Shown one piece after another: positions 17,884 to 33,341 of a DNA stretch of 33,645 nt. Every line of letters begins with the position of its first letter. The stretch's first letter is position 1. The stretch comes from a virus. Where the stretch lies: IMG/VR virus record IMGVR_UViG_3300046680_000542, positions 1 to 33,645 of that record; one strand, 5' to 3'. Below the pieces are notes generated by a model that saw only the letters and a list, made by a program, of their open reading frames with translations, made no database searches and was not told the DNA's origin. A program made the translations under genes and the position numbers.

Positions 17884-18338
17884 CCGCTTTCAAGCGAGAG
17901 CCGCTGCTGACTCCGCGGGAGGTTGGGCGCTTCTTGAAGGTTTCGATCAGCACTGCTCGCCGCATTATGCGAGCAGAAGGCGCGATCATGATCGGCAATA
18001 AGGTGCGGTGGACAGCCGCTCAGCTCGATCGCTTTGTTCGAAAGGGCGGAACGGCACGATGCACAAGCGAACCCCACTCTACGTCCCCAAGGGAGGCCCA
18101 ACAGCAAAAGATCGACTCTACGTGCGATCTGGGGTCTGGTACTTCTGGGCTTACGACTGGCGACGAGAGCAATACAAAACAACTACCCGAGTGCGAAGTA
18201 CCGTCGATTGGGAGTCCGACCCCAAGCAATGGGAACGCGAGAAGTACGCCGCGGCTGAAGTTGCTCGCAAAGAAGAAGCCCGTCGCGAGCAACGACCGGA
18301 TAACCCTGCCGCGGACCAAGCCTCGGGCTTCACGCTGA
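17880..18338 (+). CDS. Excisionase-like HTH protein whose frame overlaps the integrase
   Basis: Residues 9-57 form an HTH of the excisionase/MerR-like type: Leu-Thr-Pro-Arg-Glu-Val-Gly-Arg-Phe-Leu-Lys-Val-Ser, then a recognition helix with Thr-Ala-Arg-Arg-Ile-Met-Arg, and a wing with Gly-Asn-Lys-Val-Arg-Trp. In phages such proteins sit next to int and bend attP to direct excision. The frame stays open 280 bases into the integrase gene, but that part is Ser/Thr/Pro-rich and looks like a shadow. An A_AAG_GGC heptamer at 18041-18047 could shift ribosomes into the integrase frame. Confidence 0.6.
   Translation: MTAFKREPLLTPREVGRFLKVSISTARRIMRAEGAIMIGNKVRWTAAQLDRFVRKGGTARCTSEPHSTSPREAQQQKIDSTCDLGSGTSGLTTGDESNTKQLPECEVPSIGSPTPSNGNARSTPRLKLLAKKKPVASNDRITLPRTKPRASR
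18041..18047 (+). other. Candidate -1 frameshift heptamer A_AAG_GGC
   Basis: The heptamer is in the X_XXY_YYZ phase of the HTH gene (codons Lys-Gly at 18042-18047). A -1 shift leads straight into the integrase frame, giving Arg-Asn-Gly-Thr and then the integrase start Met. No stop intervenes. Downstream structure was not computed. Confidence 0.35.
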
Positions 18339-19393
18339 ATCAGGCTCGGGCGCTTCTCGAAAAGCACGATCGGATCAACAACGCGGCGCCCAATACTGTC
18401 GAGTACCACGACGACAGGGCAGGGCACTTGGTGCGCGTCTTCGGCGGATCTGCGCCGTTGGCCAAGATCGACATGAAGGCGTTCGTCGACTACACCGAGA
18501 AGCGTTGCGACGAAGGCGGCTCCGCTTATACGATCAAGAAGGAGCACACGGTCTTTCGTCAGATGCTTGGGCTCGCCAAGAGCGTCGGTTGCTACTTCGG
18601 CAATCCGGAAGTCTTCGTGCTTCCTGGGTACACCGAAGACGCGTACGAGCCCGGCGACGTCTGGCTCGAAAAGGTCGAATGGGTCAATGCTCTCATCGCA
18701 CACACGAGTTCGAATCCGGACAAGCATCGGATCGATCGACGTGACGACATGCTGGTGATTCTCAACTCGGGTCTGCGTCGGCGCGAGTTGCTGTTCATCC
18801 GGCCCGAGCACGTGAACTTGGAGCAGCGAAGCTTTCTGGTGCGCGATCTGTCCAAGCGCGAGAAGAAGAACGTCGGCCAACGGGCGACCGGGCTCAAGAC
18901 GAAGAGCTCCATGCGTTCGGTGCCCATGACCGATACGCTGCTCGAAGTCTTCCGGCGTCGGTTGCGTACTGCGCAACCTGGTCGGCCGCTCTTCACCGAT
19001 TGGGGGTCGGGCAATCGCGATCTCAAAGCCAACTGGAAGAGAGCGAGAGCGTGGCTGATCGAACAAGCCCCGACCTCGCGTGCGGCCGCCGAGCTCGACG
19101 CGGTGCTGCCTCAGTCGTTGACGTTCAACGACCTCCGTCGCACGTGCTGCTCGCTCATGCGAAATGCTGGCGTGAGCAAGGACGACTGCGCGGCGTTGCT
19201 TGGCCACACGGACACCCGGATGGTGTCGTTGGTGTACGCGCACACGGCTGACGCCACCCTGCACGCGGCGATCGCAAAACTTCCAGTGATGGGGTTGCCG
19301 CCCGAGGCGCTCAAGCCTCGCAAGGGCATCTCTCGAAGGCATCGGCAGCGGCTCAGGGCCGAGTCGAAGCTGGCCAAAGCCGAGACCGCCTAG
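18059..19393 (+). CDS. int: Tyrosine-type phage integrase (444 aa)
   Basis: Recombines attP with the host tRNA-Pro site. The N-terminal part (about 1-80) is a basic arm-binding region, followed by a core-binding helical domain (about 90-190) and a catalytic domain (about 205-395). Catalytic residues: Arg240 (Ser-Gly-Leu-Arg-Arg-Arg-Glu), Lys280 or 282, Arg360 in Asn-Asp-Leu-Arg-Arg, His383 (Leu-Leu-Gly-His) and Tyr393 (Val-Tyr-Ala-His). The usual first residue of the His-x-x-Arg box is Asn357. Start at the ATG 18059, which has only a weak GGCGGA 6 bases upstream; the frame is open earlier. A terminator and attP follow. Confidence 0.93.
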   Translation: MHKRTPLYVPKGGPTAKDRLYVRSGVWYFWAYDWRREQYKTTTRVRSTVDWESDPKQWEREKYAAAEVARKEEARREQRPDNPAADQASGFTLNQARALLEKHDRINNAAPNTVEYHDDRAGHLVRVFGGSAPLAKIDMKAFVDYTEKRCDEGGSAYTIKKEHTVFRQMLGLAKSVGCYFGNPEVFVLPGYTEDAYEPGDVWLEKVEWVNALIAHTSSNPDKHRIDRRDDMLVILNSGLRRRELLFIRPEHVNLEQRSFLVRDLSKREKKNVGQRATGLKTKSSMRSVPMTDTLLEVFRRRLRTAQPGRPLFTDWGSGNRDLKANWKRARAWLIEQAPTSRAAAELDAVLPQSLTFNDLRRTCCSLMRNAGVSKDDCAALLGHTDTRMVSLVYAHTADATLHAAIAKLPVMGLPPEALKPRKGISRRHRQRLRAESKLAKAETA

Positions 19394-19527: not shown

Positions 19528-19578
19528 CCGAAAGCCGTTTAGATTTGGCTTGTTTTATGGTGTTTTTGTGCGGGGACG

Positions 19579-19627
19579 CATGCTTTGGGAGCATGAGGTC
19601 GCTGGTTCGAATCCAGTTGCCCCGACC
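19579..19627 (+). other. attP core: 3' half of tRNA-Pro(UGG)
   Basis: From the anticodon stem onward this is a tRNA-Pro: stem CATGC/GCATG around loop TTTGGGA (anticodon TGG), T-stem GCTGG/CCAGT around loop TTCGAAT, and the acceptor strand TGCCCCG plus A, CC. The D arm and a full 5' acceptor strand are absent, although CGGGG (19571-19575) stands just before. Phages that integrate in tRNA genes carry just such a 3' segment so that integration rebuilds the gene. It is therefore scored as attachment site, not tRNA gene. Confidence 0.85.
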
Positions 19628-22454: not shown

Positions 22455-22756
22455 CTCTACATCGTGCGCGCGTGGTGGTGGCCATCGAGGCGACTGAAGA
22501 TCTCAAGCTTTGCGTGAAGTACATTCGCATCGTCGACGGAGACATCACGCTCGACGAGCTGCTCTTCGAGTGGTTCAACATGACCGGCTTCACGTCGGAA
22601 GGCGCGCGACGCAACTGCATCGACTCGATCGCGTTCTTCTTGCGTTGCCGGCCGCCGCTTCGGGACGCGATCATGGGCGCGCTCGACGCTCCAAGTGCAC
22701 GCGAAGTGAAAGACGCAATTGAGGGAAGCCGTGAAAAAGAAAAAGCGACGTCATGA
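22451..22756 (+). CDS. Hypothetical protein (101 aa)
   Basis: ATGA overlap with the double-HTH gene. A short beta segment (Val-Val-Val-Ala-Ile-Glu-Ala) is followed by helices with Trp-Phe-Asn-Met-Thr-Gly-Phe and an Arg-Arg-Asn-Cys-Ile-Asp-Ser-Ile-Ala-Phe-Phe-Leu helix. The tail is charged. It ends 26 bases inside the small terminase gene. Unknown function; may assist DNA recognition in packaging. Confidence 0.55.
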   Translation: MTLHRARVVVAIEATEDLKLCVKYIRIVDGDITLDELLFEWFNMTGFTSEGARRNCIDSIAFFLRCRPPLRDAIMGALDAPSAREVKDAIEGSREKEKATS

Positions 22757-23423
22757 TGACGAAGAAGACGAGAAGCTGACGCGACGACAGAAGATCGAGC
22801 TCGCGACTTCGATCTATTCGCACTTGGTCGACGGGAGCACGCCCGAAGACATCATGGACGAGCTCGGGATCTCGGCGCAGCACTACTCGATCGCCATGAA
22901 GCATCTGCTCATGACGAAGGGCGACGAAGAAGAAGCGCTCTCGCCCAAAGAACGCTTCGCCCGGTACGTGATCGACCAAGAGCGGAACCTCACCGACTTG
23001 AGCGACCTTGTGACGAATCTGAACTCCAAGACGCAGTACAGCGTGATCGTCGGCGCGATCCGTATGCGATCTGAGATCGCCAATCAGATCATTTCGACGG
23101 GACAGACGCTGGGCGTGATTTCCAAAGAGCCTGAGCGACGCGTGTTGGTAGGCGGTATCTCGGTGATGGACATGAAAGATCCCGACCTCCGAAAAGGAGT
23201 CTTGAGCGCGATCGGTGGGCTCAGCAAGATGATCGAGAAGTACGGCACCGGCACCAATGTTCGACAGCTCGCGCCGGGGCCGCTTCATCATGGTGAAGCC
23301 GTCGTCGAAGACGCGTCATCTGCCACGCTCGGCAAGCCCTCGATGGTCGAGGCTTCGAGCGACAAGAAAAACCGCGCGAGGTCGGGCAAACGCTCTGCAG
23401 GCAGGCGGCGCGTGCGAGATTGA
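22731..23423 (+). CDS. Probable terminase small subunit (230 aa)
   Basis: The GTG at 22731 has a GAGGGA ribosome site; a TTG at 22719 is in frame. The N-terminus is a Lys/Arg/Asp/Glu-rich stretch, followed at about 16-60 by an HTH-like region (Ile-Tyr-Ser-His-Leu-Val-Asp-Gly-Ser-Thr-Pro-Glu-Asp-Ile). A central helical region (75-150) would drive oligomerisation, and the C-terminus is basic and probably disordered. Domain order, size and position before the large subunit fit a small terminase, which recognises phage DNA for packaging. Not matched to a named family. Confidence 0.5.
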   Translation: MKKKKRRHDDEEDEKLTRRQKIELATSIYSHLVDGSTPEDIMDELGISAQHYSIAMKHLLMTKGDEEEALSPKERFARYVIDQERNLTDLSDLVTNLNSKTQYSVIVGAIRMRSEIANQIISTGQTLGVISKEPERRVLVGGISVMDMKDPDLRKGVLSAIGGLSKMIEKYGTGTNVRQLAPGPLHHGEAVVEDASSATLGKPSMVEASSDKKNRARSGKRSAGRRRVRD

Positions 23424-23432
23424 AGGATCGCC

Positions 23433-24227
23433 ATGACACCGAACACCATCGTAATCACGCCTGATCGCAACACGCACGACAACGACTTCACCGGCGCGTT
23501 CAACCCGGAGGCTATCCATTACATGAAGGCCGTGCCCGGCGCCCATACACGCTTCGAGATCGATGTCTCGAAGGGGATGCCTACGCGGCTGAATCAGCTT
23601 TTCGCGCAACTCGATACGCTGAAGGGTGGAAACTACGGCGCCGTGGCTGTCTTTTGCCATGGTTGGAACAACGGCATTCAGGCCGGTGTTCGAAACACGA
23701 ACATTCCTGAGTTCGTGCGCCGTTTGTGCGCTGCGACAAAAAACGGCATCGCCCAAAACGATCCGCTGCACGTCGTTTTGTATTGCTGCTCGACAGCCGC
23801 GGGCAAGGATACCCCCGAGAACGAGTCCGAAGTCGGCGGCGACGGAGGCTTTGCGGACATCATGCGCGATCAGTTTTGCGTTCAAGGCAAGCCGTGGGTT
23901 CGTGTGTATGGACACACGTCGCGCGGGCACACCACGATGAACCCACAGGCTCGCATGTTCGAAGGGAAGGGCTCGCCCGTGGGCCTGACGGGCGCCGAGT
24001 GGGTGATTCGTCCGCAGCCGCCCAAGAATGTGCTGTGGCCGCGCTGGGTGGCCGCGCTGGCGAGCAAGGCGCCGTTCGATCTGGGAACAATGAATGGGCC
24101 CGCGGTGTGGACGTCAGGCACTCGCGGCACCATTGGCGCAGTGGCGCGTCAGAACTTGCGTTTCGTCGCGCCTTTCATGACGATAGCTGAGTTGCACGGC
24201 GTGCTTATTCCTGATGGCGTTGTCTGA
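23433..24227 (+). CDS. Possible caspase-like (CHAT-type) protein (264 aa)
   Basis: Caspase-fold peptidases share a strand ending in His-Gly and a later strand ending in Cys. Here Ala-Val-Ala-Val-Phe-Cys-His-Gly-Trp (His76) is followed by Leu-His-Val-Val-Leu-Tyr-Cys-Cys-Ser-Thr-Ala (Cys118 or Cys119). The second strand looks like the Val-Val-Leu-Ser-Ala-Cys of CHAT proteases. A further Gly-His-Thr-Ser-Arg-Gly-His block lies at 160-166. No alpha/beta-hydrolase Gly-x-Ser-x-Gly motif is present. The position between the terminase subunits is unusual. Function inferred only from the dyad pattern; an unrelated phage enzyme is possible. Confidence 0.4.
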   Translation: MTPNTIVITPDRNTHDNDFTGAFNPEAIHYMKAVPGAHTRFEIDVSKGMPTRLNQLFAQLDTLKGGNYGAVAVFCHGWNNGIQAGVRNTNIPEFVRRLCAATKNGIAQNDPLHVVLYCCSTAAGKDTPENESEVGGDGGFADIMRDQFCVQGKPWVRVYGHTSRGHTTMNPQARMFEGKGSPVGLTGAEWVIRPQPPKNVLWPRWVAALASKAPFDLGTMNGPAVWTSGTRGTIGAVARQNLRFVAPFMTIAELHGVLIPDGVV

Positions 24228-24262
24228 ACCCAAGCGGCTCCCTCTGGCTACCATCCCAAGCG

Positions 24263-24293
24263 ACCCCGACCCGTGTCGCGCGCGGGTCGGGGT
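24263..24293 (+). terminator. Hairpin terminator after the caspase-like gene
   Basis: ACCCCGACCC (24263-24272) pairs perfectly with GGGTCGGGGT (24284-24293); TTTT lies a few bases beyond. Confidence 0.65.
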
Positions 24294-24349
24294 TCAGCTT
24301 TTGTGGACGACAAAAGACGCTCTGATCGAAACAGGGATCGGGGGAATCG

Positions 24350-24853
24350 GTGATCAAACGGCGCACATGGCTGATCTATCTGTTTTCCCTTCCGTCTGAT
24401 CTGATCGCGACGTTGCTTTTGCTGGTGCTTGCGCCGTTTCAGTCAGGGCTCGGGCTGTGCTTGGAGCGGCGCCCCGACGCGCCGGGACTGTGGGCGCTGT
24501 CGCTCGACGTGGACGGACTGCACGGCGTCTACATGGCCGTCACCATAGCGCCCCACGTCATGTTTTACCGCAGCGGTTGTCACTTCGGACAGGGCTGGTC
24601 GCAGCTGCAGGACTACGAGCACCAACGGTGCGAGCGCCTCGAAGTGTCGAGCCTTGCCGGCGCGTTGCTTGGGCTCGGGTCGTTCGTCTTGGGCGCGCCC
24701 TGGTTCGTGGCGTTGGCGCTGTGGATGCCGGCGCCGTGGGTCTACATGATCGCGAGCTACGCCGTCGCGTGGCTTCGCGGCGAGGACCCGTCGCGCGGCG
24801 CGCACAACGAAGAAGCCTCGTATGCGCTCGCGGCCCAAAGTGGCAAGCGCTGA
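24350..24853 (+). CDS. Membrane protein (167 aa)
   Basis: GTG start after a GGGGGAATC stretch. Hydrophobic segments at about 7-30, 101-124 and 126-143 give three transmembrane helices. The loop of about 70 residues between the first two has a His/Cys/Trp-rich stretch (Gly-Cys-His-Phe-Gly-Gln-Gly-Trp, then Tyr-Glu-His-Gln-Arg-Cys-Glu) that could bind metal. No lysis or exclusion family is recognised. It stands between two hairpins and so may be its own transcription unit inside the packaging module. Confidence 0.6.
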   Translation: MIKRRTWLIYLFSLPSDLIATLLLLVLAPFQSGLGLCLERRPDAPGLWALSLDVDGLHGVYMAVTIAPHVMFYRSGCHFGQGWSQLQDYEHQRCERLEVSSLAGALLGLGSFVLGAPWFVALALWMPAPWVYMIASYAVAWLRGEDPSRGAHNEEASYALAAQSGKR

Positions 24854-24901: not shown

Positions 24902-25072
24902 AGGGCTACGCGTTGAAGACGGCTCGTAGTCTGTCAAGGGTCACCCACCATAGGAGGTGATCGAAAGTCTTCATTGCCACGCTTTGAAGTGTGGCGTTTC
25001 AAATCCGTAGGATCAACGCCGTCGAAAGCAACTTCGGCGGCTCGCACCAGTTTGTTTGCAAGGAGAACTGAC
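24902..25072 (+). other. Leader before the small virion gene, with a perfect anti-16S sequence
   Basis: AGGAGGTGATC (24952-24962) is fully complementary to the 3' end of 16S rRNA, yet no ATG or GTG follows at normal distance. GCCAC (24976-24980)/GTGGC (24991-24995) and GGCGTT (24994-24999)/AACGCC (25015-25020) form mutually exclusive hairpins downstream. A TTG at 24974 is in frame with the next gene and would add 33 residues. A tRNA was considered and rejected. It may be a translational control leader. Confidence 0.35.
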
Positions 25073-25375
25073 ATGTCGAGTGGTACGCAGATCACGAAAA
25101 ATGGCGCCATCACGGGCACGGGCGCAAATCTCGATGTGACCACGGTGGGCTTTCGGCCGCGGCGCGTCGAGCTGATCGATCAGACCGGCCTCGCCACGGC
25201 CGTGTGGACGGACTCGATGGCCGAGGGCCGCGGATTCAAGCGAGTGACGGCCGGCGACATGACGCAGATGGCTGCTGCCGCGGGCATCACGCCGCTCGCG
25301 AATGGGTTTCGCATCGGCACCGACGCGACCATGAACGCCGCTGGTCATCTCATCCACTGGATCGCGTTCGAGTAA
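25073..25375 (+). CDS. Small virion-associated protein (100 aa)
   Basis: The ATG 25073 has AGGAG 7 bases upstream. The sequence is a compact beta-rich fold: Gly-Thr-Gly-Ala-Asn-Leu-Asp-Val, a Phe-Arg-Pro-Arg-Arg-Val-Glu-Leu strand, Gly-Arg-Gly-Phe and an Ile-Gly-Thr-Asp turn, ending with His-Trp-Ile-Ala-Phe. Such short proteins with a Gly-Phe-Arg-Pro-Arg motif accompany head genes of phages, and a head-decoration or fibre role is a fair guess. Placed before the terminase, not after the capsid gene, which is unusual. Confidence 0.5.
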   Translation: MSSGTQITKNGAITGTGANLDVTTVGFRPRRVELIDQTGLATAVWTDSMAEGRGFKRVTAGDMTQMAAAAGITPLANGFRIGTDATMNAAGHLIHWIAFE

Positions 25376-25387
25376 GCCGCACGGCCC

Positions 25388-25438
25388 GCAGCAAAGGGGG
25401 CGAGTCTTGCTATTGGTAGCGGGCTCGCCCCTTGCTGC
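25388..25438 (+). terminator. Long hairpin after the small virion gene
   Basis: GCAGCAAAGGGGGCGAG (25388-25404) pairs with CTCGCCCCTTGCTGC (25424-25438), with one bulge in each half of the stem. No T-run. Likely a terminator or an mRNA-stabilising hairpin. Confidence 0.55.
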
Positions 25439-25461
25439 TGAAAAGGGAATGGAGCAAGCAA

Positions 25462-25920
25462 ATGACACAACCCTATTACGATATCGCTAGAGTCGGCAGG
25501 CGCCTATCCGATCCGCTCACGACACTCGGATCGTCGCCCGCGCAAGCGCCTGGCTGGCAACTCAATCGAGTAGTGTCGGCGCAAGATACCACCTTCGTCG
25601 CGCGTTCGGCGAGCGTGAACTGCCACGGTTACACGTCTGTGCGCTTCGCGATTACGCCGATGACGGCCGATCCGCGAACGGATCCGGCCGCTGTGCCGGG
25701 TGGCAGCGCCACCGTCGCGGCGGAGGTTCGCATATGGTCGGAGCCAGCAAAGGCGTTCGTTCCGTTGCCGACGCCCATCACGCACACAGCGGGCGGCGCT
25801 GGCGTTGCGTATGTAGTCGATGTGCCCAACGCCAACGGAGCGATCCTCGGATGTTTTGTGACCAACGCGCTGGGCGGCATTTGCACCATCGCGTCGCAAG
25901 GATTCGACGACGACGTTTGA
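25462..25920 (+). CDS. Probable virion protein (152 aa)
   Basis: ATG 25462 with GGAG upstream. Beta-rich, Thr/Ala/Val-rich sequence with a Val-Arg-Ile-Trp strand, Pro-Leu-Pro-Thr-Pro, and a Ser-Gln-Gly-Phe-Asp-Asp-Asp end; no enzyme motif. This composition is typical of small phage structural proteins. It follows the small virion gene and precedes the large terminase, between two hairpins, so it may be expressed at its own level. Confidence 0.5.
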   Translation: MTQPYYDIARVGRRLSDPLTTLGSSPAQAPGWQLNRVVSAQDTTFVARSASVNCHGYTSVRFAITPMTADPRTDPAAVPGGSATVAAEVRIWSEPAKAFVPLPTPITHTAGGAGVAYVVDVPNANGAILGCFVTNALGGICTIASQGFDDDV

Positions 25921-25977: not shown

Positions 25978-27516
25978 GTGGCCCCGACACCAGCGCTAGC
26001 CAAGGACCTCGAACGAATAGAGCGAGCCCGTCGTAAGAAATACCGATCGCACTTGGCGCTCGTCATCCCCACGCCGAAACAACTTCGGCGGGCAGACCGT
26101 GCGCAGCTGATCGACTTCTACGAGAACTCCTACAAGCTCCGGAACGACTGGATTCGCGATCAGGTCATCAACAACGACCGGATCGACATCTTGGCGACTG
26201 AAGTGCTCGGACTGCAGGTCGAGCCATTTCACCTCGCGATGATGCAGTTTCAGTTCGAGCACGGCGAAAGCTTGCAGCTTTGCTTCCGCGGCGCGGGCAA
26301 GTCGACGACGTGCACTGAGGTGAAAGTCATTCACCTTCTACTCAAGAATCCGAATCTACGGATCTTGATAGCATCGAAGACGTTGCAGAACGCGTGCGGC
26401 TTCTTGAAGAACATCAAGTCGCACTTCGAAACGAACACGCGCCTGCAGGAGATCTTCGGGCGCTACTATGACTCGAAGCGCGTTGGCAAGTGGGACGAGC
26501 GCGAGATTGAGGTGTTGCCGCGCACGATTGTCGCGAAAGAAGCTTCTGTCACGTGCGTCGGTGTCGAAGGCACGGTCGTGTCGAAGCACTACGACGTGAT
26601 CATCTCGGACGACTTGGTCGACGAAGACAACAGCCGCACGAAGTTGCAGCGCGAGAAGACGCAGAAGTGGTTTTACAACACGCTCATGCCGACGCTTGAG
26701 CCGCCCGACGAAAACGTGCCGCACCGCGGCGAGCACCACATGCTCGGGACGCGCTACCACTACGACGATCTGTACGGTCACCTGATCAAAAGCGAGCTCA
26801 AGAAGCACCACCAAGTTATCCCGGCGCTCGACGAGAAGGGCCGAAGCCCGTGGCCGAAGAAGTACCCCGCGAAGTGGTTCCTCGAACGGCGCAAGCGCGC
26901 CGGCCTGATCATTTTCAATGCTCAGTATCAGTGCGACACCGAGGCGATGAAGGGAGAGATCTTTCAGTACGACTACTGTCAGCAGCTCTCAGATGACGTG
27001 TGGCCGGACCCGAAGACGCTTCGCGTCTTCATGGGCGTGGATCTGGCGATCAGTGAAGACGAGAAAGCCGACAAGTTCGCGATCGTCGTGATCGGCGTCA
27101 CCAAGGATCGTAGTGGCTACTACGTGCTCGACTACTTTGAAGATCAGTTGCGCTTCAGCGCACAGACGAAAAAGATCGTCGAATACTATCGGCGCTGGAA
27201 GCCGATCCGCTGTGGCATTGAAACCAATCAGTACCAGGCGGCTCAGTACCAAACGCTGAAAGAGGTCGACAAGGATCTCCGTTTGAAGCGCGTTCAAACG
27301 GACAAGGACAAGATCACGCGCGCGTGGAAATTGTCGGCTCTTTTCGAAGACAAACGCATGTTCTTCCGCAAGGGCTCGCAGGCGCTTCTGATCGAACATC
27401 TCGTGCTCTTTCCGAACCACAAGTACAAAGATCTTTTTGACGCACTCGACCTCGCCGTCACCACCAGCAAAATGCGGCGCCGTGGCAGCGCCAGAAAAGA
27501 ACCGGGAGTCATTTGA
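25978..27516 (+). CDS. terL: Terminase large subunit (512 aa)
   Basis: The packaging motor that cuts and pumps phage DNA into the head. The ATPase domain has Walker A Arg-Gly-Ala-Gly-Lys-Ser-Thr (104-110) and Walker B Val-Ile-Ile-Ser-Asp-Asp (207-212). The nuclease domain shows three acidic sites in order: Asp355 (Gly-Val-Asp-Leu-Ala), Glu415 (Gly-Ile-Glu-Thr-Asn) and Asp491 (Ala-Leu-Asp-Leu-Ala). Size is usual. Start at GTG 25978, shortly after a GAAGG. Followed directly by the portal gene. Confidence 0.95.
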   Translation: MAPTPALAKDLERIERARRKKYRSHLALVIPTPKQLRRADRAQLIDFYENSYKLRNDWIRDQVINNDRIDILATEVLGLQVEPFHLAMMQFQFEHGESLQLCFRGAGKSTTCTEVKVIHLLLKNPNLRILIASKTLQNACGFLKNIKSHFETNTRLQEIFGRYYDSKRVGKWDEREIEVLPRTIVAKEASVTCVGVEGTVVSKHYDVIISDDLVDEDNSRTKLQREKTQKWFYNTLMPTLEPPDENVPHRGEHHMLGTRYHYDDLYGHLIKSELKKHHQVIPALDEKGRSPWPKKYPAKWFLERRKRAGLIIFNAQYQCDTEAMKGEIFQYDYCQQLSDDVWPDPKTLRVFMGVDLAISEDEKADKFAIVVIGVTKDRSGYYVLDYFEDQLRFSAQTKKIVEYYRRWKPIRCGIETNQYQAAQYQTLKEVDKDLRLKRVQTDKDKITRAWKLSALFEDKRMFFRKGSQALLIEHLVLFPNHKYKDLFDALDLAVTTSKMRRRGSARKEPGVI

Positions 27517-27518
27517 CT

Positions 27519-29408
27519 ATGCGAATCGACAACGCAGCTACCGCTATTCCACTGTCTGCGCAGCGCTCCGCGTCGGGAGCTGCCAACGCGGCCAACCACA
27601 AAGCGCTACGTCAGGTGCGCGCGCTGGTGATCGACGTTCGCAAGAACGGCGGAGCGAACGGCCTGACAGAATCGAAAGAAGATCCGGGCAAGTCGGAAGC
27701 GCTGGCCGAAGAGCCATTCAACGCGCTCGGCCACAAGGGCCGGATCATCATGCCGCCGTTCGACATGCTGACGCTCGCGATGCTACCCGAAAACAGCTCC
27801 GAGATGTTTCAGTGCGTCGAGGCCATGGAGATGAACATCGAAGCGACCGGACATCGCTTCGTGTCGAGACTGCGGCTCGATGACGTCACCAAAATCGAAG
27901 ACGATCAGGCGTCGGACACCAAGGGAGATCTGACCCCGGAGCAGCGCAAGGCGCTCGATGGCGCGCGCGCCGAAAAGGTGCGGCTCACGAACTTTTTCAC
28001 CTACTGCACGACCGAAAGTTTCGTTCAGTTTCGTCGGCGCTTGCGCAAGGATCTCGAAACGACCGGCAACGCGTACTACGAGGTCATTCGCAACGCAGCG
28101 GGTGAGGTCCAGGGCTTTACGCACTTGCCGAGCTATCAAATGCGTCTGGGCAAGATGGAGGACGAAGCGGTCGAAGTTACGCGAAAAATCTTGGAGCTGC
28201 AGCCGGATGGTAGCGTGGTCGTGAAGGAGCAGCGTGTCATGCGCCGGTTTCGCACGTTTGTGCAGAGCCGCACGATTCAGCAAGGTCGCACGACGTCGTC
28301 GATCACAGGCCACAAGGTCGTGTGGTTCAAGGAGTTCGGCGATCCGCGCGCGTACTCGAAGAGCAGTGGCGAGCACGATGGCGAGGGCGGCGAGCGCAAG
28401 CGCATCGACCTGAAGGATCGAGCGAGTGAAGTCCTTCACCTGAAGCTCTACAGCCCGCGCAGCCCTTACGGGCTGCCACGGTTCATCGGCAATTTGCTGT
28501 CGATCTTTGGCGACCGCGCGGCCGAGGAAATCAACTGGATCACGTTCAAGAACAACAACATCCCGTCGATGGTTGTCGCCGTTTCGAACGGGCAGCTGAC
28601 GCAAGGCACCGTCGATCGTATCGAGTCGTTCGTCGAGTCACAGATCCAGGGCTCGGACAACTACAGCAAGTTTTTGATCATCGAAGCCGAACCCACCGGC
28701 GAGGACACGGCGGGCGAGGACGGCGGCCAAGTGAAGATCGATGTCAAGCCGCTGACCAAAGAGCAGCACGCCGACGCGCTCTTTCAGAACTACAGCACGA
28801 ACAACCAGGACAAGATCCGCCGTTCGTTTCGCTTGCCGCCGATCTTCGTGGGCCGAGCGGGCGATTACACGCGTTCAACTGCCGAGTCGTCGCGGCGCCT
28901 TGCGGACGAGCAAGTGTTTGCGCCCGAGCGTATGGAGTTCGACGAGATGATGAACCGGTTGATCTTCCCAGAGATGGGAGTGATCTTTCACAAGTTCAAG
29001 TCGAACACGCCCAACACGACCGACAACACACAGCTCGTGAAGATCTTGGGCGGCTCAGAGAAGACGGGCGGCATGACGCCGCGCATCGCGCGCTTCTTGC
29101 TCGAAGACATCTTGGGCGCTGACTTGCCCAACTTCGCCGCAGACTTCCCGGCCGATGTTCCGTTCAGCATGACCATGGCCGAGGCCGTGAAAAACCAAGC
29201 TCAGCCCACTGAGCCTGGCCAGCAAGTGACGGCGCTCAAGGCGCTGGGCCTGATCGACGACAACGACGAGCTGGACCTGTCTTCGCTGGGCCTCGAAGAT
29301 CTCGACGAGAACGATCCTGAAAGCGTGATCGAAGTCGCAAAGCGTCTTTTGGCGCTCAACCGCTCTGCAGAAATCATCTGGCGTAAGCGAATGACGGAGA
29401 GCGCGTGA
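27519..29408 (+). CDS. Portal protein (629 aa)
   Basis: Forms the 12-fold ring through which DNA enters and leaves the head, docking TerL. The family elements appear in order: an N-terminal helical region, Asp-Met-Leu-Thr-Leu, an Asp-Leu-Glu-Thr-Thr-Gly-Asn-Ala-Tyr-Tyr strand-turn, Tyr-Gly-Leu-Pro-Arg, an Asn-Trp-Ile-Thr-Phe stem helix, then Arg-Leu-Pro-Pro-Ile-Phe-Val-Gly and Thr-Ala-Glu-Ser-Ser. This is the PBSX-type portal pattern. At about 285-315 lies a low-complexity acidic/basic loop. ATG 27519 chosen; a TTG at 27513 sits at a better distance from the GGGAG ribosome site. Confidence 0.9.
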   Translation: MRIDNAATAIPLSAQRSASGAANAANHKALRQVRALVIDVRKNGGANGLTESKEDPGKSEALAEEPFNALGHKGRIIMPPFDMLTLAMLPENSSEMFQCVEAMEMNIEATGHRFVSRLRLDDVTKIEDDQASDTKGDLTPEQRKALDGARAEKVRLTNFFTYCTTESFVQFRRRLRKDLETTGNAYYEVIRNAAGEVQGFTHLPSYQMRLGKMEDEAVEVTRKILELQPDGSVVVKEQRVMRRFRTFVQSRTIQQGRTTSSITGHKVVWFKEFGDPRAYSKSSGEHDGEGGERKRIDLKDRASEVLHLKLYSPRSPYGLPRFIGNLLSIFGDRAAEEINWITFKNNNIPSMVVAVSNGQLTQGTVDRIESFVESQIQGSDNYSKFLIIEAEPTGEDTAGEDGGQVKIDVKPLTKEQHADALFQNYSTNNQDKIRRSFRLPPIFVGRAGDYTRSTAESSRRLADEQVFAPERMEFDEMMNRLIFPEMGVIFHKFKSNTPNTTDNTQLVKILGGSEKTGGMTPRIARFLLEDILGADLPNFAADFPADVPFSMTMAEAVKNQAQPTEPGQQVTALKALGLIDDNDELDLSSLGLEDLDENDPESVIEVAKRLLALNRSAEIIWRKRMTESA

Positions 29409-30501: not shown

Positions 30502-30528
30502 CCACGTCACGATAAACTCGTGACGTGG
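30502..30528 (+). other. Hairpin overlapping the protease start codon
   Basis: CCACGTCAC (30502-30510) pairs perfectly with GTGACGTGG (30520-30528) around a 9-base loop. The GTG start of the protease gene (30525-30527) lies inside the 3' arm. The loop and the arm's start contain TAAACT (30513-30518), 6 bases before the GTG. Confidence 0.6.
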
Positions 30529-31088
30529 ACATTCAAGGACACCTCGACTCTATCGCCGCGCTCGCGAAAGGCGCGCAGAAGCAGCGCGCTGAAAAGCATG
30601 TTTCGCCCGAGCCAGAGGCCGCCGAGCCGGCGCCGGACGACGGGCAGGCCGAGTGCGAGGCCGATGCAGAAGACGAAGACTCTGAACAGAGTTCAGTCGA
30701 AAAGCGGATCGAAATCGAGATCCTCAAGGCGTCGGACGAAGAACAGACCGTCAGCGGGGTTGTGCTGCAACCTGAAGTGGTCGACGCGCACGGCGACATC
30801 ATGTCGGCCGACGTGATCAAGCAGGCCGCATACGGCTTTCTTCAGAACTTCAATCGAACGACGAAACTCGGCGTGCAGCACTCGACTTTCCCCAAGGGAA
30901 AGCTCGCGCTCGTCGAAAGCTACATCGCGCCAAACGGGATCGTGCTTGGCGCAAAGACGGTTCGTCAGGGCTCTTGGATCATGACAGTCAAAGTGCTCGA
31001 CGCGGACATTTGGAAGAAAGTCAAAGACGGCAAGATCGGCGGCTTCAGCATCGGCGGTCGAGCCAAGGTCGTGAAGCTCGAAGAGTGA
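30525..31088 (+). CDS. XkdF-like prohead protease (187 aa)
   Basis: Cleaves scaffold and capsid proteins as the head matures. After a disordered acidic stretch (26-58) the protease part has Val-Ser-Gly-Val-Val-Leu-Gln-Pro-Glu-Val-Val-Asp-x-His-Gly-Asp, the likely catalytic His119 (Gly-Val-Gln-His-Ser), Ser132 (Val-Glu-Ser-Tyr-Ile-Ala-Pro), a Trp-Ile-Met-Thr-Val-Lys-Val strand and the closing Ile-Gly-Gly-Phe-Ser-Ile-Gly-Gly. In PBSX-type XkdF this module continues into a C-terminal part; here that part is in the next gene. The GTG lies within a hairpin and 6 bases after TAAACT. Confidence 0.8.
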   Translation: MDIQGHLDSIAALAKGAQKQRAEKHVSPEPEAAEPAPDDGQAECEADAEDEDSEQSSVEKRIEIEILKASDEEQTVSGVVLQPEVVDAHGDIMSADVIKQAAYGFLQNFNRTTKLGVQHSTFPKGKLALVESYIAPNGIVLGAKTVRQGSWIMTVKVLDADIWKKVKDGKIGGFSIGGRAKVVKLEE

Positions 31089-32147: not shown

Positions 32148-33341
32148 ATGGCAATCGCAAACGAAGAGCTCGTCAGAAAGGCCACGATCGTCGCCAACGA
32201 TCTCGCGTCTGGCGGAAAACTGAATGACGCGCAGTCCGACCGATTCATCGATTTCGTGATCGACGAAACCGTGCTCAAGGACAACGCGCGGATCGTGCGC
32301 TTCCGCAATGAAAACTTGGAGATCGACAAAATCGGTGTGGGCAAGCGCGTCGCTGTGCCCAAGGCCGAAGGCGTCGACCCGCAAGTGCGCCGCGGCATCA
32401 CGACCAGCAAGATCACCATCACGCCGCATGAGCTGATGGTGCCGTTCGAGATCGGCGACAACTTCCGAGAGCTGAACATCGAGGGCGACAACGTCGAAGA
32501 GACGATCATTCGTCTGATGGCGACACAGCTCGCCAACGACCTCGAAGATCTCTACCTCAACGGCAACAAGCTCGGCCCCGCGATCCCGCAATCGGATCTG
32601 ATCGAAGGCGGCTCGAACGACGAAATCAAAGACAGCTACCTCGCGCTCAGCGACGGCTGGTCTGTGCTCGCCGACGGCTCGAACGTGGTCGACGCGCAAG
32701 GCGCAAACGTGGGCCTGTCGATCTTCAGCAAAGCGATTCGTGCGATGCCGACAAAGTTCCGTCGGAACCGTGCTGCACTGCGATGGTTCATGAGCCCGGA
32801 TCTGTGGCAGCTCTACATGGAGAAACTCTCCACGCGCGCGACCGCACTCGGTGACAACGCTGCCGGTGGCGGTGGCGGTACGCCTGGACCGTTCGGCATC
32901 CAAGCCGTGCCCGTTCCGCTCTGGGAGTTCGAGCCGCTCACCGTCGAACACGTGCAGTTGAACGGCACGACGGCCGTCGCTCTGAAAAACGCCAACATCA
33001 CCGACGTCGTGGTGCACGACGACGCGCTCGAAAAGGTCCCGACCGCGCCGTACATCTTGGGCACCGACTACAGCGTCGACACGGCGGCAGGAACCATCAC
33101 ACGCATCGGCGGCGCGATCAGCTCCGGCGACATCGTGAAGGTGACCTACCGTTCGAGCCCGCAGCTCATCCTGACGCACCAAAACAACTTCATCGTGGGC
33201 ATCGGTCGCGAGATCCGGATCGAGCGCGACCGCGACATCTACAAGGGCGTGAATCAGTACGCAATCACGTCCAAGGTCGACGTCCAGTTCGAAGAGCTCT
33301 CCGCGATCGTCAAGGTCCGGAACATCGGCCTCGGCGTCTAG
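32148..33341 (+). CDS. Major capsid protein, HK97-fold with an inserted domain (397 aa)
   Basis: Main shell protein. GGGAG lies about 8 bases before the ATG. The N-terminus is helical. An Ile-Thr-Ile-Thr-Pro-His-Glu-Leu-Met-Val-Pro-Phe-Glu-Ile strand run (88-102), a long spine-helix stretch (Val-Glu-Glu-Thr-Ile-Ile-Arg-Leu-Met-Ala-Thr-Gln-Leu-Ala, 116-130) and the C-terminal Ile-Gly-Arg-Glu-Ile-Arg-Ile-Glu-Arg-Asp-Arg-Asp (352-363) follow the usual order. A beta-rich insertion of about 75 residues (262-336) with Tyr-Ile-Leu-Gly-Thr-Asp-Tyr-Ser-Val-Asp and Gly-Thr-Ile-Thr-Arg-Ile interrupts the C-terminal part; it may be an Ig-like surface domain. Confidence 0.88.
   Translation: MAIANEELVRKATIVANDLASGGKLNDAQSDRFIDFVIDETVLKDNARIVRFRNENLEIDKIGVGKRVAVPKAEGVDPQVRRGITTSKITITPHELMVPFEIGDNFRELNIEGDNVEETIIRLMATQLANDLEDLYLNGNKLGPAIPQSDLIEGGSNDEIKDSYLALSDGWSVLADGSNVVDAQGANVGLSIFSKAIRAMPTKFRRNRAALRWFMSPDLWQLYMEKLSTRATALGDNAAGGGGGTPGPFGIQAVPVPLWEFEPLTVEHVQLNGTTAVALKNANITDVVVHDDALEKVPTAPYILGTDYSVDTAAGTITRIGGAISSGDIVKVTYRSSPQLILTHQNNFIVGIGREIRIERDRDIYKGVNQYAITSKVDVQFEELSAIVKVRNIGLGV

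Follow-up and report, generated by a model that had tools for sequence, protein, structure and literature searches.

A candidate caspase-like (clan CD fold) cysteine peptidase encoded in the packaging region of a phage genome

The DNA analysed here (hereafter the window, 33,645 bases) is the entire virus record IMGVR_UViG_3300046680_000542, and the product of its open reading frame 23433-24227 is very probably a clan CD-like cysteine peptidase using His76 and Cys119. On balance, we regard it as a stand-alone cytoplasmic enzyme of clan CD, the product of an accessory gene, which probably cleaves host proteins in trans. The kind of protein is already known, a 2012 study having recorded caspase-like toxin domains in Caudovirales (PMC3482391); what is new is a compact stand-alone phage family with a Tce/DUF4347-like fold, unannotated in the searched libraries. 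A literature search, which covered few subscription papers, found no functional study of a phage caspase. The preliminary description of this DNA, made from the single sequence, had read the product as a possible caspase- or CHAT-like protease, and this reading is now strongly supported by the invariant His76-Gly77 and Cys119, by a confident model of the clan CD type and by the structural matches to clan CD enzymes.

The open reading frame is a real gene. It starts with ATG, encodes 264 aa and is preceded by an AAGGA-like site, its start codon being separated by 9 bases from the stop of the preceding ORF (234 aa). The presence of relatives on 43 other viral contigs, together with the differences from the homolog on contig L001 by codon position (0.27/0.21/0.52), shows it to be under selection. 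The gene is followed, as had been proposed, by a terminator-like hairpin of its own and then by a membrane gene (Table 1); comparable hairpins are found 3' of the peptidase gene in L001 and L002. The packaging and head module as a whole runs rightward, after the integrase and tRNA-Pro. As to the two terminase subunits said to flank the gene, the large one is firmly identified and the small one is plausible: the upstream ORF had no PHROG match, and Pfam gave nothing above a weak DUF7084 match, the assignment being made plausible by the HTH-like N-terminus and by the kept synteny, since its counterpart is retained directly upstream of the peptidase gene in L001, L002, L005 and L046. Relatives of the downstream membrane gene carry a zincin-like HExxH motif (HEHEH, HEHVH, HEHFH; L001:8852-9415, L002:9107-9415, L005:5826-6395), which is lost in the window copy (YEHQR).

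Table 1. Features of the window referred to in the text (positions in the 33,645-base record).
Feature	Position	Strand	Basis or remark
Integrase	18008-19393		
tRNA-Pro	19558-19627		
Probable small terminase subunit	22719-23423	+	HTH-like N-terminus, basic C-terminus, synteny
Caspase-like (clan CD fold) cysteine peptidase candidate	23433-24227	+	Conservation, AlphaFold2 model, structural alignment
Candidate catalytic His76	codon 23658-23660	+	
Candidate catalytic Cys119	codon 23787-23789	+	
Terminator-like hairpin, directly 3' of the peptidase gene	24262-24294	+	15 pairs and a short T-rich tail
Membrane protein, function not assigned, next gene	24350-24853	+	Two predicted TM segments
Conserved ~100-aa protein, same slot	24974-25375 (likely start 25073)	+	
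Conserved ~150-aa protein, same slot	25432-25920	+	
Terminase large subunit	25978-27516	+	phrog_38 E 5.2e-80; Terminase_6C E 6.5e-13
Portal	27513-29408		
Head-maturation protease, separate gene	30525-31088	+	Peptidase_S78_2
Virion structural protein	32148-33341		phrog_1623

Searches with the window protein alone retrieved two close relatives, and alignment-based scans brought the number of other viral contigs to 43; relatives are thus found on at least 43 contigs of uncultured phages, at identities of 24-63%. In one of them (L054:7355-8510) the gene is spread over two overlapping frames, which looks like a frameshift or an assembly error. No family match to the window protein was found in Pfam, PHROG, NCBIfam or PADLOC, and this includes the head-protease families (Pfam, PHROG) and the anti-phage defence families (PADLOC-DB profiles); a sequence search of the PDB gave no direct match to any solved chain. 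The protein also had no match in isolates in the databases searched. Nothing was found by tblastn with the window protein and its relatives in 50,697 phage records and 72,556 plasmids, nor by GTDB scans of 84,980 species genomes, which are sensitive to close relatives only. The Pfam models of CHAT and of the Peptidase C14 caspase domain had no matches in 31 family members at E up to 1. Weak matches to Pfam DUF4347 (PF14252), covering the segment that carries the His and the Cys, were obtained for seven of the 31 members, the best with E 8e-4; the sisters examined scored about 18 bits, below the gathering cut-off of 24.6 bits, and the window protein itself gave no match.

The candidate catalytic residues were judged from an alignment (A7) of 43 rows with a mean column identity of 26%. 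Five columns, namely D18, F23, H76, G77 and C119, are invariant in all 43 rows; H161 is present in every row reaching that column, H166 in all but one, and N170 is almost invariant. The window protein contains 13 His and Cys residues, of which only H76, C119, H161 and H166 are conserved in more than two thirds of the rows. Position 118 is occupied by Ala in 23 rows and by Cys in 18, so that the motif across the family is Y-[AC]-C. It resembles the "[AC]-C" motif typical of caspases and CHAT proteins, both of them clan CD peptidases. Because only Cys119 is invariant, it is the candidate nucleophile, and Cys118 was rejected in this role. The preliminary description had picked its residues from a single sequence; the conservation in the family is therefore an independent test of them, and His76 and Cys119 withstood it. 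In clan CD the residue of the S1 pocket follows strand 1, being Arg64 in caspase-3 and an Asp in metacaspases. By analogy, the invariant Asp18, located after strand 1, would point to a preference for a basic P1 residue.

With the 43-sequence alignment AlphaFold2 produced a confident model (pLDDT 90.5, pTM 0.90); with three sequences only the model was poor (pLDDT 53). DSSP assigns strands to residues 4-10, 38-43, 68-74, 112-117 and 156-161 of the model, with helices in between. His76 lies just past the third strand and Cys119 just past the fourth, which is the clan CD layout. The claim that His76-Gly and Cys118/119 end two adjacent strands thus holds, with Cys118/119 narrowed to the invariant Cys119. 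By inspection, neither a signal nor a TM segment is evident at the N-terminus. Residues 210-238 form a low-confidence insert that is present in the clade of the window and missing from most other subfamilies; it is possible, speculatively, that this insert is an autoprocessing loop.

Structure prediction followed by a fold search had been proposed as a check, and it came out in favour of the protease reading, although Foldseek alone was weak: against the PDB it gave no match with E below 0.001, and asparaginases stood on top of a weak mix that included caspases and toxin protease domains. The 1000 top Foldseek chains were then aligned with VIA-align, and the 50 best rows consist entirely of clan CD enzymes and Tce1. 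The best match is Tce1 (Z 11.9, rmsd 2.9, 158 residues aligned, 15% identity), followed by the cysteine protease domains of TcdB/TcdA (9.1), caspases (8.9), SAVED-CHAT (8tl0, 8.9), legumain (8.5) and RTX domains (8.4); as Z values of 7-8 are frequent by chance in VIA-align, Tce1 stands clearly, and the other matches moderately, above this level. Alpha/beta hydrolases are absent from the 50 best aligned chains, and an alpha/beta hydrolase with a nucleophilic Cys was accordingly rejected. The same absence weighs against a broader alternative, in which the caspase-like fold serves for binding or for another chemistry (as a pseudo-enzyme, a thioesterase or some other hydrolase). The near-invariance of H161, H166 and N170 could be accounted for in this way, yet the His-Gly and the Cys are strictly kept at the canonical clan CD positions, and we consider a non-peptidase function quite improbable. 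In a viral library of predicted structures the top match was A0A8S5P2H5, a fragment of a phage "minor capsid protein" (E 6e-4, TM 0.25), which hints at possible fusions between caspase-like domains and capsid proteins in other phages.

The nearest structural relative, Tce1 (PA0256), is, like Tce2, a putative cysteine-protease effector of the type VI secretion system in Pseudomonas aeruginosa (PMC13323088, PMC8262886); it carries the DUF4347 domain (PMC8262886), is reported to have the dyad His186/Cys240 and is loaded inside Hcp rings of this system (PMC13323088). The window protein shares with it the predicted fold and a His and Cys dyad, and its sisters give the weak DUF4347 matches. In contrast to Tce1, it is encoded by a phage and lacks both the N-terminal extension of about 100 residues and any link to Hcp; the DUF4347 cut-off is reached neither by it nor by the sisters examined, and the likeness is one of fold. 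Sequence (DUF4347) and structure (Tce1) independently converge on one group, though we do not claim formal membership. With the CHAT peptidases (SAVED-CHAT and the TPR-CHAT of Craspase) the protein has in common the clan CD fold and, by inspection, the motif order HG...[AC]C...G-G...strand; these, however, serve in host defence and carry sensor or repeat domains, whereas the window protein is small, phage-encoded and devoid of such domains. The predicted fold and the catalytic layout are likewise those of caspases and metacaspases (C14), legumain (C13) and the toxin cysteine protease domains (C80), but the window protein has no sequence-family match to these. The Tox-Caspase domains of polymorphic toxins (PMC3482391) are also caspase-like; they sit in multidomain exported toxins, while the window protein is free-standing and small and has no trafficking domain. 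The phage head-maturation proteases belong to unrelated families, although our candidate is likewise encoded in the morphogenesis region of the window; the window has a Peptidase_S78_2 protease of its own, for which reason the identification of our candidate as the head-maturation protease was rejected.

The order of a small-terminase-like gene, the peptidase gene, small genes, large terminase and portal is common to the window, L001, L002, L005 and L046. The preliminary description, which had singled out the gene as an insertion between the terminase subunits, was therefore right for the window and four related phages, but this arrangement is a property of one lineage and not a trait of the family. 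A clear large terminase gene is present on 20 contigs: five have the window arrangement, in four (L009, L014, L020, L035) the peptidase gene is convergent with the large terminase gene at a distance of 2-4 kb, and in 11 it is more than 10 kb away. With 15 of 20 contigs convergent or remote, a conserved tie to the terminase genes was rejected. Baseplate genes are located upstream of the peptidase gene at eight loci; at others its neighbours are RuvC, exonuclease, helicase, methyltransferase, transposase, holin-like or transglycosylase genes. No widely recurring partner was found among 142 neighbours. The gene calls around the loci were made with a simple heuristic script, and the fine detail is approximate.

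L046 is close to the window in its large terminase (64% identity) and portal (60%), while the peptidases of the two are only 33% identical. The L046 peptidase is 56-61% identical to its counterparts in L065 and L047, whose loci have other contexts, and in the tree it falls inside the L065/L047 clade with strong support. Two distinct subfamilies thus occupy the same slot, either by replacement or by independent insertion, and such reuse would fit an accessory gene that is mobile and favours a particular site. The content of the slot also varies in other respects. In L046 (7784-9517) two further genes occupy it, one for a TM protein of 58 aa, the other for a protein whose N-terminus is hydrophobic and which by eye resembles a cell-wall hydrolase and has no PHROG match, so that lysis-like genes occur in the packaging slot. 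Between the peptidase and large terminase genes, L001 (10027-14228) encodes a further repeat-rich protein of 979 aa, as well as a longer variant of the ~150-aa protein (419 aa) that bears repeats; the window has neither.

The preliminary description had named lysis, defence competition and a packaged protein as possible roles. We suppose that tailed phages carry the gene as an accessory ("moron") gene, outside the virion-building core. In the putative reaction, Cys119 would attack the peptide bond and His76 would act as a general base or acid; as infection proceeds, the enzyme would cleave in trans a single host protein or a small number of them, in the course of counter-defence or host take-over. 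The host-directed role is deduced mainly from the absence of signs of a structural one, since the shifting gene context and the separate head-maturation protease make a structural or packaging role less likely. Against this, in the lineage of the window the gene sits in the late packaging region, a position equally compatible with a late role and with host take-over. As to the targets, it is an unlikely, more specific version that the phage family cuts key proteins of cell-death or CHAT-type immune systems or triggers death, in some lineages after delivery by the virion.

Delivery by the virion may also be considered in its own right: the peptidase could be carried inside the head or the tail tube and released into the next host upon ejection, by comparison with Tce1, the best structural match and itself a tube-loaded effector. 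The location of the gene, which belongs to the packaging region in the window and follows baseplate genes in several other phages, is consistent with this, as is the annotation of A0A8S5P2H5. However, the latter match is weak at the values given above, no fusion of the peptidase to a structural protein was found in the 43 sequences, and the neighbours vary and include replication genes; we regard such an effector as improbable. The peptidase might instead have a late accessory function in lysis, helping to dismantle the cell or to time its lysis. In L016 and L019 an upstream gene matches the phrog_608 holin, in L054 a transglycosylase-like gene adjoins the peptidase gene, and in the window a membrane gene lies downstream; yet lysis genes occur at a minority of loci, RuvC, exonuclease or helicase genes adjoining elsewhere, and no signal peptide is apparent, all of which renders this function rather unlikely. 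Processing of a phage structural protein during virion maturation would agree with the position between packaging genes kept in five related phages. It is the least probable role, given that a separate head-maturation protease exists and that the peptidase gene is bound to no single morphogenesis module. Cleavage of host proteins in trans by a cytoplasmic accessory peptidase is thus the reading we prefer.

Bacterial caspase-like peptidases are known as defence executioners and injected toxins. A free-standing family in many unrelated uncultured phages would equip phages with the same class of enzymes, and it adds a phage branch beside the DUF4347-like/Tce group. The family makes a direct question testable, namely, which proteins are the targets of a phage caspase-like peptidase.
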